A stretch of 64,000 bases of DNA from Sandaracinaceae bacterium (lineage in GTDB: Bacteria > Myxococcota_A > Polyangia > Polyangiales > Sandaracinaceae): assembly GCA_019637095.1 (NCBI GenBank), contig JAHBWG010000010.1, positions 1-64,000 of the forward strand. Direction: 5' to 3'. The position numbers and the translations under genes are program-made. Shown here piece by piece: positions 1,390 to 5,919 of this stretch; positions within the stretch are counted from its first letter, which is position 1, and each line of letters starts with the position of its first letter. The notes under the pieces were generated by a model. The model was not told the DNA's origin. It saw only the letters and a list, made by a program, of their open reading frames with translations, and ran no database searches.

Positions 1390-2259
1390 ATGGGCGTCGA
1401 GATCATGAACCCGAAGATGCTCGAGAAGATGCGCGAGTCGTGTCGGCTCGCGGCCGAGTGTCTCTGCATGGTCGGCGACGAGCTGCGGCCCGGGATGACG
1501 ACGGAGCGGATCAACACGCTCGTGCACGAGTGGATCGGAGACCACGGCGGCATCCCGTCGCCGCTGAACTACGGCAACCCGCCGTACCCGAAGAGCGTCT
1601 GCACGAGCGTCAACGAGTGCGTCTGCCACGGGATCCCGAGCGCGAAGCAGGTGCTGCGCGACGGCGACATCGTGAACGTCGACGTGACGATCTACTACCC
1701 GCGCGAGTACGGCTTCCACGGCGACACGAGCGCGACGTTCTACGTGGGCGAGCCGAGCGAGGACGCCAAGCGCGTCGTCGAGACGGCGCGCTGGGGGCTC
1801 GAGCTCGGGATCCAGGCCGTGCGCGACGGCGCGCGCGTGCGCGACATCGGCCGCGCGATCCAGGACTACGCCGAGGCGCAGGGCTGCTCGGTCGTGCGCG
1901 ACTTCGTCGGGCACGGGGTCGGGCGCGAGTTCCACATGCCGCCGCAGATCCCGCACTACTACGAGCCGCGCGCGGGCAAGCGGCTCAAGCGCGGGATGAC
2001 GTTCACGATCGAGCCGATGATCAACCTCGGCGACTACCGCACCGAGATCCAGAGCGATCACTGGACCGTGCTGACGAAGGACCGGAAGCTGAGCGCGCAG
2101 TTCGAGCACACGCTCTGCGTCACGCGAGACGGCGTCGAGGTGCTCACGGCGCGGCCGCGCCTGCTCGCGAACAGCGAAGACCGGCCGTGGGCCAAGCTCG
2201 GCGCGTTGAGCGTCCCGGCGAGCGCGCCGGCGACCGCGCTCGCCGCCGCCGAGGAGTAG
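1390..2259 (+). CDS. map: Type I methionine aminopeptidase
   Basis: Removes the initiator Met from nascent cytosolic proteins using a dinuclear metal site. 289 residues, slightly longer than the usual 250-265. The five metal ligands of the family are visible: Asp98 (in NVDVT), Asp112 (in HGDTS), His175 (in GHGVG), Glu208 (in TIEPM) and Glu239 (in FEHTL); the substrate-contacting His is His80. The last ~40 residues are an Ala-rich extension. The ATG at 1390 is taken; an in-frame ATG at 1405 (MNPKML) is an alternative. No Shine-Dalgarno is seen, but TACGTA lies 9 nt before the ATG. It is monocistronic between divergent and convergent neighbours. Confidence 0.95.
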   Translation: MGVEIMNPKMLEKMRESCRLAAECLCMVGDELRPGMTTERINTLVHEWIGDHGGIPSPLNYGNPPYPKSVCTSVNECVCHGIPSAKQVLRDGDIVNVDVTIYYPREYGFHGDTSATFYVGEPSEDAKRVVETARWGLELGIQAVRDGARVRDIGRAIQDYAEAQGCSVVRDFVGHGVGREFHMPPQIPHYYEPRAGKRLKRGMTFTIEPMINLGDYRTEIQSDHWTVLTKDRKLSAQFEHTLCVTRDGVEVLTARPRLLANSEDRPWAKLGALSVPASAPATALAAAEE

Positions 2260-2275: not shown

Positions 2276-3280
2276 TCAGGCGTCGAGGACGACCCAGCCG
2301 TCCGCGTCGATGCGCAGCGGCAGGCGCTCGAGCGAGCCGCCCTCGCACGGCCCCTCCGTGCAGTAGCCGTCCTCGAGGCGGTAGAGCGCGCCGTGCGTGC
2401 CGCACATGAGGTGGGTCCCTGCGCGGTTCATGAACTCGCGCGAGCCTCCGTCGAGCGGCACGGGTAGGTGCTGGCACTCGTTGACGTACGCGCGCGGCTC
2501 GCCGTCGGGCGTCGCGAGGACCAGCACCTCGCGCGGCCGACCGTTCGCGAGGCGGCCCCAGATCACCGCGCGCGGCCGCGGGCGGAGGTCCTCGAGCCGG
2601 CAGACCCGCAGCGGCCCGCGCGCGGCCGCCGCGTGCGTCGCGTGCGCGCGTCGCTGCACGACGCGGTGCTCGGGTAGGACCAGCGCGCTGAGGTGGCCGC
2701 CGTAGCAGCAGCCCGTGTCGAGCCCGATCGCGTGGGGCCATCGCTGCAGGCCGGTGATCGCGTCGTGACCGAAGACGACGCGCTCCGGCCCCCGCCAGCG
2801 CGAGGCCCACGGCACTCCGTCCTCGAGCCGTGGGGACGCGGTCCCGTCGGCCCGCAGGGTGCGCATCGTCAAGACGTCTTTACGCCGTTGCGCGGCGAGC
2901 GGGACGCCGGGCACGAGGCCCGCGTGCACGACGACCACGCCGAGCTCGGGGAGCTCGAGGGAGAGCGGCAGCGCCGCGAGCCAGGCCCAGTCCGCCTCAC
3001 TCAGCGCAGCCGCGTGCGCGGCGTGGCGCTCGGCGAGCGGGCGCGGGTCGCGGCCGGTTCGCCACGCGAGGAGGCGGTCGTCGTGGTTGCCGAGCACCGC
3101 GAGGTGACCGCCTTCGCGGAAGAAGCGCACGACCCCCGCGCCGTCGGGCCCCTTGCCGACCAGGTCGCCGACCGACACGAGCCGATCGTGCCCGGGCTCG
3201 AAGCGCAGATCCCCGAGCAGCGCGCGGAGCTCGGCGAGGCAGCCGTGGATGTCGCCGACGATGACGGTGCGAGCGGTCAC
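2276..3280 (-). CDS. PPP-type metallophosphatase fused to a C-terminal Rieske [2Fe-2S] domain
   Basis: 334 residues from GTG 3280. The N-terminal half is a calcineurin-like/PPP phosphatase with ordered motifs GDIHG (9-13), GDLVGKGP (38-45), GNHD (64-67), a later VHAG and a VFGHD, which together make the two-metal site; ApaH-like Ap4A hydrolases and bacterial PPP phosphatases share these. After about residue 230 comes a Rieske-type domain: Cys269-x-His271, 21 residues, Cys293-x2-His296, then an EGPC...LP segment typical of Rieske ferredoxins. The two domains are in one uninterrupted frame and both look intact. Joining a phosphatase to an electron-transfer or redox-sensing cluster suggests redox control of dephosphorylation; that is inference. 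No signal peptide is seen, so it is probably cytosolic. Confidence 0.85.
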   Translation of the reverse strand: MTARTVIVGDIHGCLAELRALLGDLRFEPGHDRLVSVGDLVGKGPDGAGVVRFFREGGHLAVLGNHDDRLLAWRTGRDPRPLAERHAAHAAALSEADWAWLAALPLSLELPELGVVVVHAGLVPGVPLAAQRRKDVLTMRTLRADGTASPRLEDGVPWASRWRGPERVVFGHDAITGLQRWPHAIGLDTGCCYGGHLSALVLPEHRVVQRRAHATHAAAARGPLRVCRLEDLRPRPRAVIWGRLANGRPREVLVLATPDGEPRAYVNECQHLPVPLDGGSREFMNRAGTHLMCGTHGALYRLEDGYCTEGPCEGGSLERLPLRIDADGWVVLDA

Positions 3281-3328: not shown

Positions 3329-3363
3329 AAAAACGAAGGGCCCGCTGGCGAACCAGCGGGCCC
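3329..3363 (-). terminator. Rho-independent terminator of the Cys-rich lipoprotein gene
   Basis: A perfect 11-bp inverted repeat (3338-3348 with 3353-3363, arm GGGCCCGCTGG on either strand) encloses a TTCG tetraloop when read on the minus strand. It is followed on that strand by TTCGTTTTT. It lies 25 bases after the stop of the minus-strand gene at 3388-4077 and is the best terminator in the window. Confidence 0.85.
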
Positions 3364-3387
3364 TCGCGGACCTGAGGAGCGGGGCGC

Positions 3388-4077
3388 TCAGAGAGGCAGG
3401 GGCAGGTCCAGCTCGGCGATGACGCGGCGCAGCCGCTCGGGCGAGAGCTGGAAGTCGGGGCGGTTGAAGTCCGGCAGGAAGCCGCCGCCGGTGGCGAAGC
3501 ACATGCTCGCGCGCGAGTTCGCGCACGTCTGGAGCGCGGAGATGTTGGCGTCGATGCAGGTGTTGAGCGCGGTCTCCTCCGCCTCGCAGCCCGCCGTCGC
3601 GTCGTCGCAGAAGTCCGAGCACTCGATGCACGCGCCGAACTGGCTCGGGCAGCTGTCGAAGATGCAGGCGTTGATCATCCAGTTGAAGCAGCCGAAGCAG
3701 TTGATGCTCTCGGACATGCCGCCACCGAAGTCGACGTTGGTCGGCGCGGTGGTGTCGGCGCGCAGCGCGTTGGACTGGCAGGTCGCGTCCATCCCGCACG
3801 CCATCAGCGCGCTCGCGGTCGCCGAGGAGCAGCGCGGCAGGCACGCCGCGGGCAAGGGCGGGAAGCCCGTCGCGCCGGCCACGGAGCACCCGGTCGCGGG
3901 CGGACCCGAGTCGGTGCCCATCATCGAGCCCGCGTCCGTCCCGCCGCCGCCGCCGCTGTCCATGAGCACGATGCCGCCGGCGTCGCTGCCGCTGCCGCTG
4001 CGGCTGTCGCAGCCCGTCAGACCACCGAGCGCCAAGGTCGCGGCGCAGAGCGCCGCCGTCGTTCCGATCTTCTTCAT
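3388..4077 (-). CDS. Cysteine-rich lipoprotein, function unknown
   Basis: 229 residues with a clear lipoprotein signal: MKK, a hydrophobic core and a GLTGC lipobox near residue 23. A Ser/Gly/Asp-rich linker (about residues 24-60) precedes a folded region with roughly 18 Cys, probably disulfide-bonded in the periplasm or at the cell surface. Such linker-plus-Cys-rich lipoproteins are typical of myxobacterial proteomes. A good Shine-Dalgarno (GGTGGAGG) sits upstream of the ATG. I recognise no family. The divergent intergenic region to the peroxiredoxin gene is 256 bp, and a strong terminator follows. Confidence 0.85.
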   Translation of the reverse strand: MKKIGTTAALCAATLALGGLTGCDSRSGSGSDAGGIVLMDSGGGGGTDAGSMMGTDSGPPATGCSVAGATGFPPLPAACLPRCSSATASALMACGMDATCQSNALRADTTAPTNVDFGGGMSESINCFGCFNWMINACIFDSCPSQFGACIECSDFCDDATAGCEAEETALNTCIDANISALQTCANSRASMCFATGGGFLPDFNRPDFQLSPERLRRVIAELDLPLPL

Positions 4078-4333: not shown

Positions 4334-4804
4334 ATGCTCCAGAAAGGCAAGAAAGCCCCCGCGTTCCGCCTCCCTCGCTCGGGAGGCGGCGCGGTCGCGT
4401 CCAAGGACCTCCTCGGCAAGTGGGTGGTCCTCTACTTCTACCCGAGGGACATGACGCCCGGCTGCACGACCGAGGCGCGTGACTTCCGTGACGCCTCGGC
4501 GGCGTTCGCTGCGCGCGACGCGGTGGTGCTCGGCGTCAGCAAGGACTCGGTCGCGCGCCACGAGAAGTTCGTCGAGAAGGAGGCGCTGCCCTTCGACCTG
4601 CTCAGCGACGAGGACGGCGCGACGATCGAGGCGTTCGGCGCGTGGGGCGAGAAGAACATGTACGGCAAGAAGGCGATGGGGATCGTCCGCACCACGGTCC
4701 TCATCGACCCGGCCGGGAAGGTCGCCGAGGTGTTCGCGAACGTGCGGGTGAAGGGCCACGTCGAGCGGGTCCTGGCCGCGCTCGACGCCTTACAGCGCGC
4801 TTAG
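4334..4804 (+). CDS. bcp: BCP/PrxQ-type thioredoxin-dependent peroxiredoxin
   Basis: Reduces H2O2 and organic hydroperoxides in the cytosol. 156 residues, the normal BCP length. The peroxidatic Cys44 lies in the family motif PRDMTPGCT. The resolving Cys found five residues later in E. coli Bcp is Arg49 here, and no other Cys exists in the protein. It would therefore act as a 1-Cys enzyme or need an external thiol partner. The TAGGCT box 9 nt before the ATG and the lack of a Shine-Dalgarno suggest a near-leaderless transcript. Confidence 0.94.
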   Translation: MLQKGKKAPAFRLPRSGGGAVASKDLLGKWVVLYFYPRDMTPGCTTEARDFRDASAAFAARDAVVLGVSKDSVARHEKFVEKEALPFDLLSDEDGATIEAFGAWGEKNMYGKKAMGIVRTTVLIDPAGKVAEVFANVRVKGHVERVLAALDALQRA

Positions 4805-4866
4805 CGATCCGGGACGCCGCGACGCGATGCGGCTTCGGCACCGGCGGGAGCGGGCTCGGCGGCCTC

Positions 4867-4882
4867 GGTGAGCTTGCTCACC
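4867..4882 (+). terminator. Weak hairpin between bcp and the next lipoprotein gene
   Basis: GGTGAGC and GCTCACC face each other across two bases, about 65 bases after the bcp stop. There is no T-tract, so this may be only a pause site or chance. Confidence 0.25.
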
Positions 4883-4956
4883 CGGAGCCCCGCCGCCGTT
4901 TCTGCCTCGTCACGATCGAGACTACCCTGACGCGCGATTCAGCGAGGGAAGTGGTG

Positions 4957-5919
4957 ATGAGCGCGAAATCGATTGCGTTGTGGGTGCTCGGCCTGTCGTT
5001 CGGGCTCGTCGCGGGGTGCGCCGAAGGGCGGAACATGAACGCGTGCGATCCCGCGTGCGCGTCCACGCAGGAGTGCTGCATGGGCACCTGCGTCTTCCGC
5101 GGGCTCTGCGGCGCGACGCCGATGGACTCGGGGACGACCCCCGGGACCGATGGCGGCGGCCCGAGCGGGCGCTGTCCCGAGCACCAGCTCGAGTGCGGCG
5201 GGATCTGCGTGAACCGATCGGTGCCGCCCAACACGAACGGGACCAGCGATCCGTCGTTCTCCAACTGCAACGGCTGCGGCATCACGTGCGATCCGATGCG
5301 CGCGAACTCCTGCAGCGTGCCCGGCGGCGGCGCAGGCCTCACGCGCTGCATGTGCGGCGACTTCGATCAGTGCATCAGCGGCGAGGCCTGCGTGAACGAG
5401 GCCGGGTTCTACCGCTGCATCAGCATGTCGACCGACCCGAACAACTGCGGCGCGATCGGCAACCGCTGCGCGATGGGCGAGAGCTGCGTCGGCGGGATGT
5501 GCGTGTGCGGGGCGAGCGGCCGCGCGTGCGGGACCGGCCAGGCGTGCTGTTCGGGCTCGTGCATCGACACCCAGTCCGACCCGATGAACTGTGGCGCGTG
5601 CGGCAACGTGTGCAGCGCGCAGGGGCCGGAGTGCGTGACCGGGAGCTGCGCCTGCCCGTCCGCGGGGCGGCTCTGCGCGATGCCGATGGCGGGGGTCTTC
5701 GGCATGGGCGGATCGCCGGGCGAGAGCTGCTGCCCCGGGATGGGCTGCGTCGCGAACACCCGCGAGAGCTGCAACTGCATGCCGTGCGCCGAAGGCGACG
5801 AGTGCGCGGTCGGCAGCGATCTGTTGGGCATGACCGGGGCCGTCGAGGTGTGTTGTGGTGATCCTTTCATCATCGGGTTCATGGGGTGCGGCGGCGGCGG
5901 CTTCCCGACGTTCCCCTGA
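4957..5919 (+). CDS. Large cysteine-rich lipoprotein, function unknown
   Basis: 320 residues. The ATG at 4957 is chosen because GAGGGAAG sits just upstream and gives a clean lipoprotein signal ending in the LVAGC lipobox (Cys about 21). The mature part is dense in Cys, with repeated modules of the type GxxCxxxC...NCGxCGxxC and a short Gly/Thr/Asp linker near residues 50-72. The repeated NCG(A/T)CG units resemble Stig1-like or EGF-like disulfide repeats seen in myxobacterial surface proteins, but I cannot assign a family with certainty. It probably sits on the outer membrane or surface. The gene ends 9 bases from the stop of the convergent coiled-coil gene. Confidence 0.85.
   Translation: MSAKSIALWVLGLSFGLVAGCAEGRNMNACDPACASTQECCMGTCVFRGLCGATPMDSGTTPGTDGGGPSGRCPEHQLECGGICVNRSVPPNTNGTSDPSFSNCNGCGITCDPMRANSCSVPGGGAGLTRCMCGDFDQCISGEACVNEAGFYRCISMSTDPNNCGAIGNRCAMGESCVGGMCVCGASGRACGTGQACCSGSCIDTQSDPMNCGACGNVCSAQGPECVTGSCACPSAGRLCAMPMAGVFGMGGSPGESCCPGMGCVANTRESCNCMPCAEGDECAVGSDLLGMTGAVEVCCGDPFIIGFMGCGGGGFPTFP

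Follow-up and report, generated by a model that had tools for sequence, protein, structure and literature searches.

Here we describe a conserved pairing of an ApaH-like phosphatase (ALPH) with a Rieske ferredoxin—comparison of genomes shows the two to be normally encoded by overlapping genes in the order Polyangiales, and to be a single protein in the stretch of DNA analysed here (64,000 nucleotides, hereafter the window). Both domains are of known kinds; their conserved and repeatedly fused partnership appears to be undescribed, and our searches of open-licence PubMed Central papers for literature linking ApaH-type enzymes, metallophosphoesterases or phosphatases with Rieske proteins returned nothing relevant. 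The repeated pairing and fusion suggest an undescribed redox control of the ALPH/ApaH family. A lineage with a one-electron carrier encoded beside an ALPH, or repeatedly fused to it, makes the link of Ap4A and Np4-capped RNA levels to oxidative stress directly testable in a single protein.

The Fused Gene

The first-pass annotation had described one uninterrupted frame carrying a PPP phosphatase and a Rieske domain; its coordinates, PPP motifs and Rieske ligand residues are all correct, and we add the strand (Table 1). The single frame is confirmed by Pfam matches above cut-off, by the cluster ligands, and by third-position GC, which stays at 0.92-1.00 across the phosphatase, linker and Rieske parts, consistent with one coding frame throughout. 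Pfam places Metallophos (calcineurin-like phosphoesterase) at residues 4-176 (E 4e-14, above the curated cut-off) and Rieske (PF00355) at residues 250-314 (E 3e-8; 33.8 bits against a cut-off of 20.3); these E-values, together with the invariance of the ligands, rule out chance domain matches. The GTG start is fixed by an in-frame TAA four codons upstream. In a model of the full-length protein, pLDDT is mostly 90-98 in the ALPH domain, and the Rieske part is of low confidence.

Table 1. Positions in the window of the fused gene, its domains and motifs, and neighbouring features.
Feature	Position	Strand	Basis or remark
Fused ALPH phosphatase-Rieske gene	2276..3280	minus (3280→2276)	334 aa, GTG start
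ALPH (ApaH-like PPP) catalytic domain, residues 1-215	2636..3280	minus	Pfam Metallophos, 2QJC match, pLDDT
Junction/linker, residues 216-223	2612..2635	minus	no alternate-frame stop where expected
Rieske [2Fe-2S] domain with N-terminal strand, residues 224-334	2279..2611	minus	Pfam Rieske, fold match
Six ALPH motifs	2711..3256	minus	published motif definition (PMC8220851)
GDIHG, residue 9	3242-3256	minus	ALPH motif 1
GDLVGKG, residue 38	3149-3169	minus	ALPH motif 2
GNHD, residue 64	3080-3091	minus	ALPH motif 3
HAG, residue 119	2918-2926	minus	ALPH motif 4
VVFGH, residue 168	2765-2779	minus	ALPH motif 5
LDTG, residue 187	2711-2722	minus	ALPH motif 6
Cluster ligands Cys269-x-His271	2468..2476	minus	invariant in 46/46 pairs
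Cluster ligands Cys293-x2-His296	2393..2404	minus	invariant in 46/46 pairs
Cys307-x4-Cys312	2345..2362	minus	invariant in pairs, common in wider Rieske subfamily too
Type I methionyl aminopeptidase (M24), neighbour	1390..2259	plus, convergent	NCBIfam TIGR00500 above cut-off
Bcp/PrxQ thiol peroxidase, neighbour	4334..4804	plus, divergent, ~1 kb upstream	PRK09437 above cut-off
Terminator-like hairpin, 13 pairs, T-rich tail	3336..3365	minus, before fused gene	consensus match only

The Phosphatase Part

ALPHs are defined by six motifs—GDxHG, GDxxxKG, GNHD/E, HAG/HGG, xxFGH, and LD[ST]G—with lysine at position 6 of motif 2, and their commonest spacings are 29 between motifs 1 and 2, 26 between 2 and 3, and 19 between 5 and 6 (PMC8220851). 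The window phosphatase has all six motifs, lysine rather than arginine at that position, and the modal spacings (29, 26 and 19, with 55 between motifs 3 and 4); judged by its sequence, it is specifically an ALPH. Its closest solved relative is T. brucei 2QJC (E 9e-46, Z 32.3, 47% identity over 208 residues), canonical ApaH is the second-best structural match (Z 26.9), and the NCBIfam apaH model (TIGR00668) scores the fused protein at 75.8 bits, below the cut-off of 222.85.

From this family assignment, we infer dinucleoside tetraphosphates and/or Np4-type RNA caps as the substrates of the ALPH part. A survey of the source genome for ApaH and YqeK detected neither YqeK nor a canonical ApaH that passes the cut-off, which leaves the window protein as the strongest candidate there, on this survey, for symmetrical Np4N hydrolysis. 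Ap4A hydrolase activity, as raised in the first-pass annotation, would fit the enzyme family, which is ALPH/ApaH-type by sequence.

Alternatively, the ALPH part may mainly dephosphorylate phosphotyrosine or Ser/Thr proteins, with the Rieske part gating signalling. Myxococcus xanthus PrpA reportedly has such activity, the PPP fold matches protein phosphatases too, at lower Z, and protein-kinase-like ORFs recur at some pair loci; however, the best matches in both sequence and structure are ALPH and ApaH. Action on protein phosphorylation is possible but not favoured, and we regard it as very improbable that this is the main role.

Separately, the phosphatase domain on a short contig binned as Verrucomicrobiaceae (L015) shares 49% identity with that of the window, possibly through misbinning or transfer.

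The Rieske Part

Rieske ferredoxins of aromatic dioxygenases are one-electron carriers, and they are the best matches to the Rieske domain modelled alone (Z 12.4-12.5, rmsd 1.7-2.0 over 95-98 residues; Z 12.5 for 3DQY). The window Rieske part therefore models as an electron-transfer ferredoxin of the dioxygenase type. Six residues (C269, H271, C293, H296, C307, and C312, numbered as alignment position plus 223) are invariant in all 46 paired sequences examined. We considered CxxxxC as a thiol switch specific to the pair; this is unsupported, as the motif occurs in 27/32 Rieske-type frames from the same genome and from non-paired loci.

The cluster could also act as a sensor rather than an electron donor—its oxidation state or integrity would alter ALPH conformation or access, giving an allosteric redox or iron switch. 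The invariant ligands agree with this, as do the Rieske N-terminal extension kept across pairs and the linker region of similar length kept in the fusion; however, the nearest folds are electron-transfer ferredoxins, not sensors, and split pairs would require a stable complex. We consider such a switch rather unlikely.

Conservation of the Pair Across the Order

We searched 184 genomes of the order with the whole protein, then with the Rieske part alone, and compared the positions of the hits. Among named relatives, Sandaracinus and other Myxococcales MAGs stand nearest to the window genome, and Sandaracinaceae is a family of the Polyangiales (Myxococcota). Working codes of this analysis are used below for genomes (G numbers), loci (L numbers), and families (f1-f12), and tallies per family are hand counts from the search results. 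Sixty-one of the 82 Rieske matches adjoin a phosphatase gene or are fused with it: 52 are codirectional with the phosphatase first, four are convergent (G001, G002, G182, G183), and five are fused (G000, G029, G030, G069, G072). G035 has one more pair, truncated where its contig stops.

In ten families (f1, f2, f4-f10, f12), the Rieske gene is adjacent to or fused with the phosphatase in 54/55 Rieske-bearing genomes, counting the pair cut by the contig end; f5 contributes 5/5, and the other nine 49/50. The sole exception is G003 (L238, G003:C329), where the Rieske gene lies beside M24 and the phosphatase is on another contig. Pairing is found for 8/23 Rieske matches in f11, and in f3 the phosphatase is kept and the Rieske gene absent in 12/13 genomes, and the single weak match was not found next to any listed phosphatase.

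Of 54 codirectional pairs (a few genomes are counted here by two loci), 40 have a potential start codon for the Rieske gene that overlaps the stop of the phosphatase gene, mostly as xTGA—the arrangement expected of translational coupling. The first-pass annotation had presented the fused protein as a one-off oddity joining unrelated systems; the fusion is real, but it is not isolated, given a gene pair conserved across the order. The distances of the two partners correlate with r 0.64, a value that shared ancestry alone would give and that carries no weight as evidence.

Elsewhere in the phylum, 20 loci of Rieske homologues showed no pairing with a phosphatase. Some homologues outside the order sit by acyl-CoA dehydrogenase, SDR or P450-like genes (names read from sequence), and a gammaproteobacterial one adjoins a ChrA-like transporter gene.

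As an aside on the phosphatases, those paired with Rieske genes in f5 and most of f11 (L153, L154, L164, L166-L171, L175-L177) have arginine for lysine in motif 2; by the published rule they would not be classed as ALPHs, despite the same pairing.

Independent Fusions

The first-pass annotation had proposed looking for both domains in one protein across genomes: four other genomes, two of one genus, carry the fusion, and Pfam finds both domains in each. A maximum-likelihood tree built from the phosphatase domains puts the fused sequences on four branches and requires four state changes—the window groups with other f1 sequences, G069 with f7, G072 with f10, and G029 and G030 together within an f4 group. 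A constraint placing all fused phosphatases in one clade was rejected (AU p=0.008); the tree and this test rule out a single inherited fusion and place the origin of the fusion on at least four separate branches, one of them G072 alone.

Sequence error was considered for each of these branches. In the window linker, both alternate frames lack a stop at the position at which relatives terminate the phosphatase; in G069, neither alternate frame has a stop anywhere in the stretch examined; a one-base error therefore cannot account for either fusion. For the window, an assembly error or frameshift is ruled out by these frames together with the fusions in other genomes. G029 and G030 are separate genomes with a shared fusion; for G072, a single genome, sequence error is possible.

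Gene Surroundings

The hairpin that precedes the fused gene suggests that the gene may form its own transcription unit. In many families the pair is flanked by the M24 gene on one side and a Bcp/PrxQ gene on the other. Among 47 pair loci, the M24 gene is immediately convergent in 23; a Bcp/PrxQ gene is present in 19 and immediately divergent in nine, and is thus a frequent but not universal neighbour. At f5 and f11 pair loci we found neither M24 nor Bcp/PrxQ as a neighbour, and a glgC-like gene (name read from sequence) recurs beside the f11 pairs. The pair is kept in two different surroundings, which speaks against plain synteny.

This bears on the reading that the fusion is a neutral by-product, in which a small frameshift easily joins genes with a four-base overlap and adjacency is inherited synteny without function. 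Most codirectional pairs do overlap or almost touch, and the M24 neighbour is often conserved too; however, at f5, f11 and some other loci the pair is kept without M24 and adjoins different genes, the glgC-like one for example, an operon cannot account for the convergent pairs, and the Rieske ligands are still invariant after fusion. We judge a neutral origin to be highly unlikely.

The two proteins might instead be uncoupled partners, co-expressed because both are needed in the same condition (oxidative stress), with the ferredoxin serving another enzyme. Overlapping genes, a peroxidase nearby, and related Rieske proteins in unrelated contexts outside the order would all suit this; against it, a direct relation is indicated by the four separate fusions, by the continued adjacency of convergent pairs, and by the retention of the pair in two surroundings. 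We think this arrangement unlikely.

Other genes in the region are recorded here as observations. Just before the fused gene, an ORF on the minus strand (3388-4077) contains cysteines, is probably lipoprotein-like, and has no Pfam or NCBIfam match; several relatives have comparable sequences close to the pair (L111, L143, L172). By the peroxiredoxin, a cysteine-rich ORF on the plus strand (4642-5919) has repeated cysteine-containing segments and is kept near the pair in L109, L110, L112, and L143. ParA-, ParB-, and ScpA-like genes occur in the pair region of many relatives (L109-L113, L144-L146, L152, L156-L158, L162, L173), which puts this region near a chromosome-partitioning cluster.

A Proposed Redox Partnership

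We infer a redox link between the Rieske and ALPH parts, in which all metal-ligand residues are retained. As a tentative reading, the one we favour and think has a real chance of being correct without being probable, the ALPH is redox-partnered: a dedicated Rieske one-electron partner would set the oxidation state of its dinuclear metal centre. It draws on the conserved pairing with its overlapping genes, the four fusion branches, the identity of the phosphatase as an ALPH, the electron-transfer fold, the nearby Bcp/PrxQ gene, the literature on PP1 and ApaH, and the lack of ApaH and YqeK in the survey of the genome. The many ALPHs that do without a Rieske partner, as in f3, count against it, as does the absence of Bcp/PrxQ from part of the pair loci. 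Of the ideas in the first-pass annotation, a redox-gated phosphatase stays plausible, and a Rieske partner that passes electrons to a hydrolase-like enzyme comes close to this reading, in which the electrons would go to the metal centre and not to hydrolysis itself.

The literature concerns both the metal centre and the alarmone. PP1 loses activity when its dinuclear centre is oxidised, and ascorbate, a one-electron reductant, restores the enzyme where thiols do not (PMC4741303); disulfide stress inhibits ApaH, and cells under oxidative stress show increased Ap4A (PMC10148737).

In the proposed mechanism, oxidation would cost the ALPH its dinuclear Fe/Mn centre, and the Rieske part would re-reduce this centre or report its state, a task that suits a one-electron carrier well; a further protein, a ferredoxin reductase, would recharge the Rieske cluster. 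Hydrolysis of Np4N and caps would run as long as the cell has reducing power and stop in oxidative stress, when Np4N and capped RNA would accumulate. Fusion would fix a Rieske partner at 1:1 beside the ALPH active site. The full proposal—an Np4N/RNA-cap hydrolase with its own Rieske ferredoxin, which re-reduces or gates the dinuclear centre and so ties alarmone and cap turnover to electron supply—is a more doubtful claim, which we offer as a speculative possibility.

The redox-partner, sensor, uncoupled-partner, neutral and protein-phosphatase readings overlap in part. If the redox partnership is true, PPP phosphatases, which are known to undergo oxidation at their metal centres, would gain a dedicated iron-sulfur partner, and alarmone and cap turnover would be wired directly to the electron supply of the cell.

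Comparison with Known Systems

Among ALPHs, the window phosphatase shares with T. brucei 2QJC/TbALPH1 the six motifs, the motif 2 lysine, and the spacings of 29/26/19, along with the 47% identity to 2QJC. A 2021 survey found ALPH in 11/25 Myxococcales and almost no N- or C-terminal extensions in prokaryotic ALPHs (PMC8220851); the window protein, in contrast, has a C-terminal Rieske domain. Canonical ApaH, the symmetrical Ap4A hydrolase, has the same PPP fold, and GDxHGC and DTGC align with Shigella ApaH; however, the window protein differs from it in having lysine for arginine in motif 2, as well as in its Rieske domain.

The Rieske ferredoxins of dioxygenases (biphenyl, toluene, carbazole) have the CxH...CxxH ligands and the fold in common with the window Rieske part, which differs in its low identity to them (~20-28%), a longer gap between the ligand pairs, and the extra CxxxxC. 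Their partner is an oxygenase, whereas that of the window Rieske part is a phosphatase. For redox control, the nearest parallel is PP1/calcineurin, with the shared PPP dinuclear centre and possible one-electron control (PMC4741303)—by analogy only; there a diffusible oxidant controls the enzyme, whereas the module in the window encodes a dedicated iron-sulfur partner.
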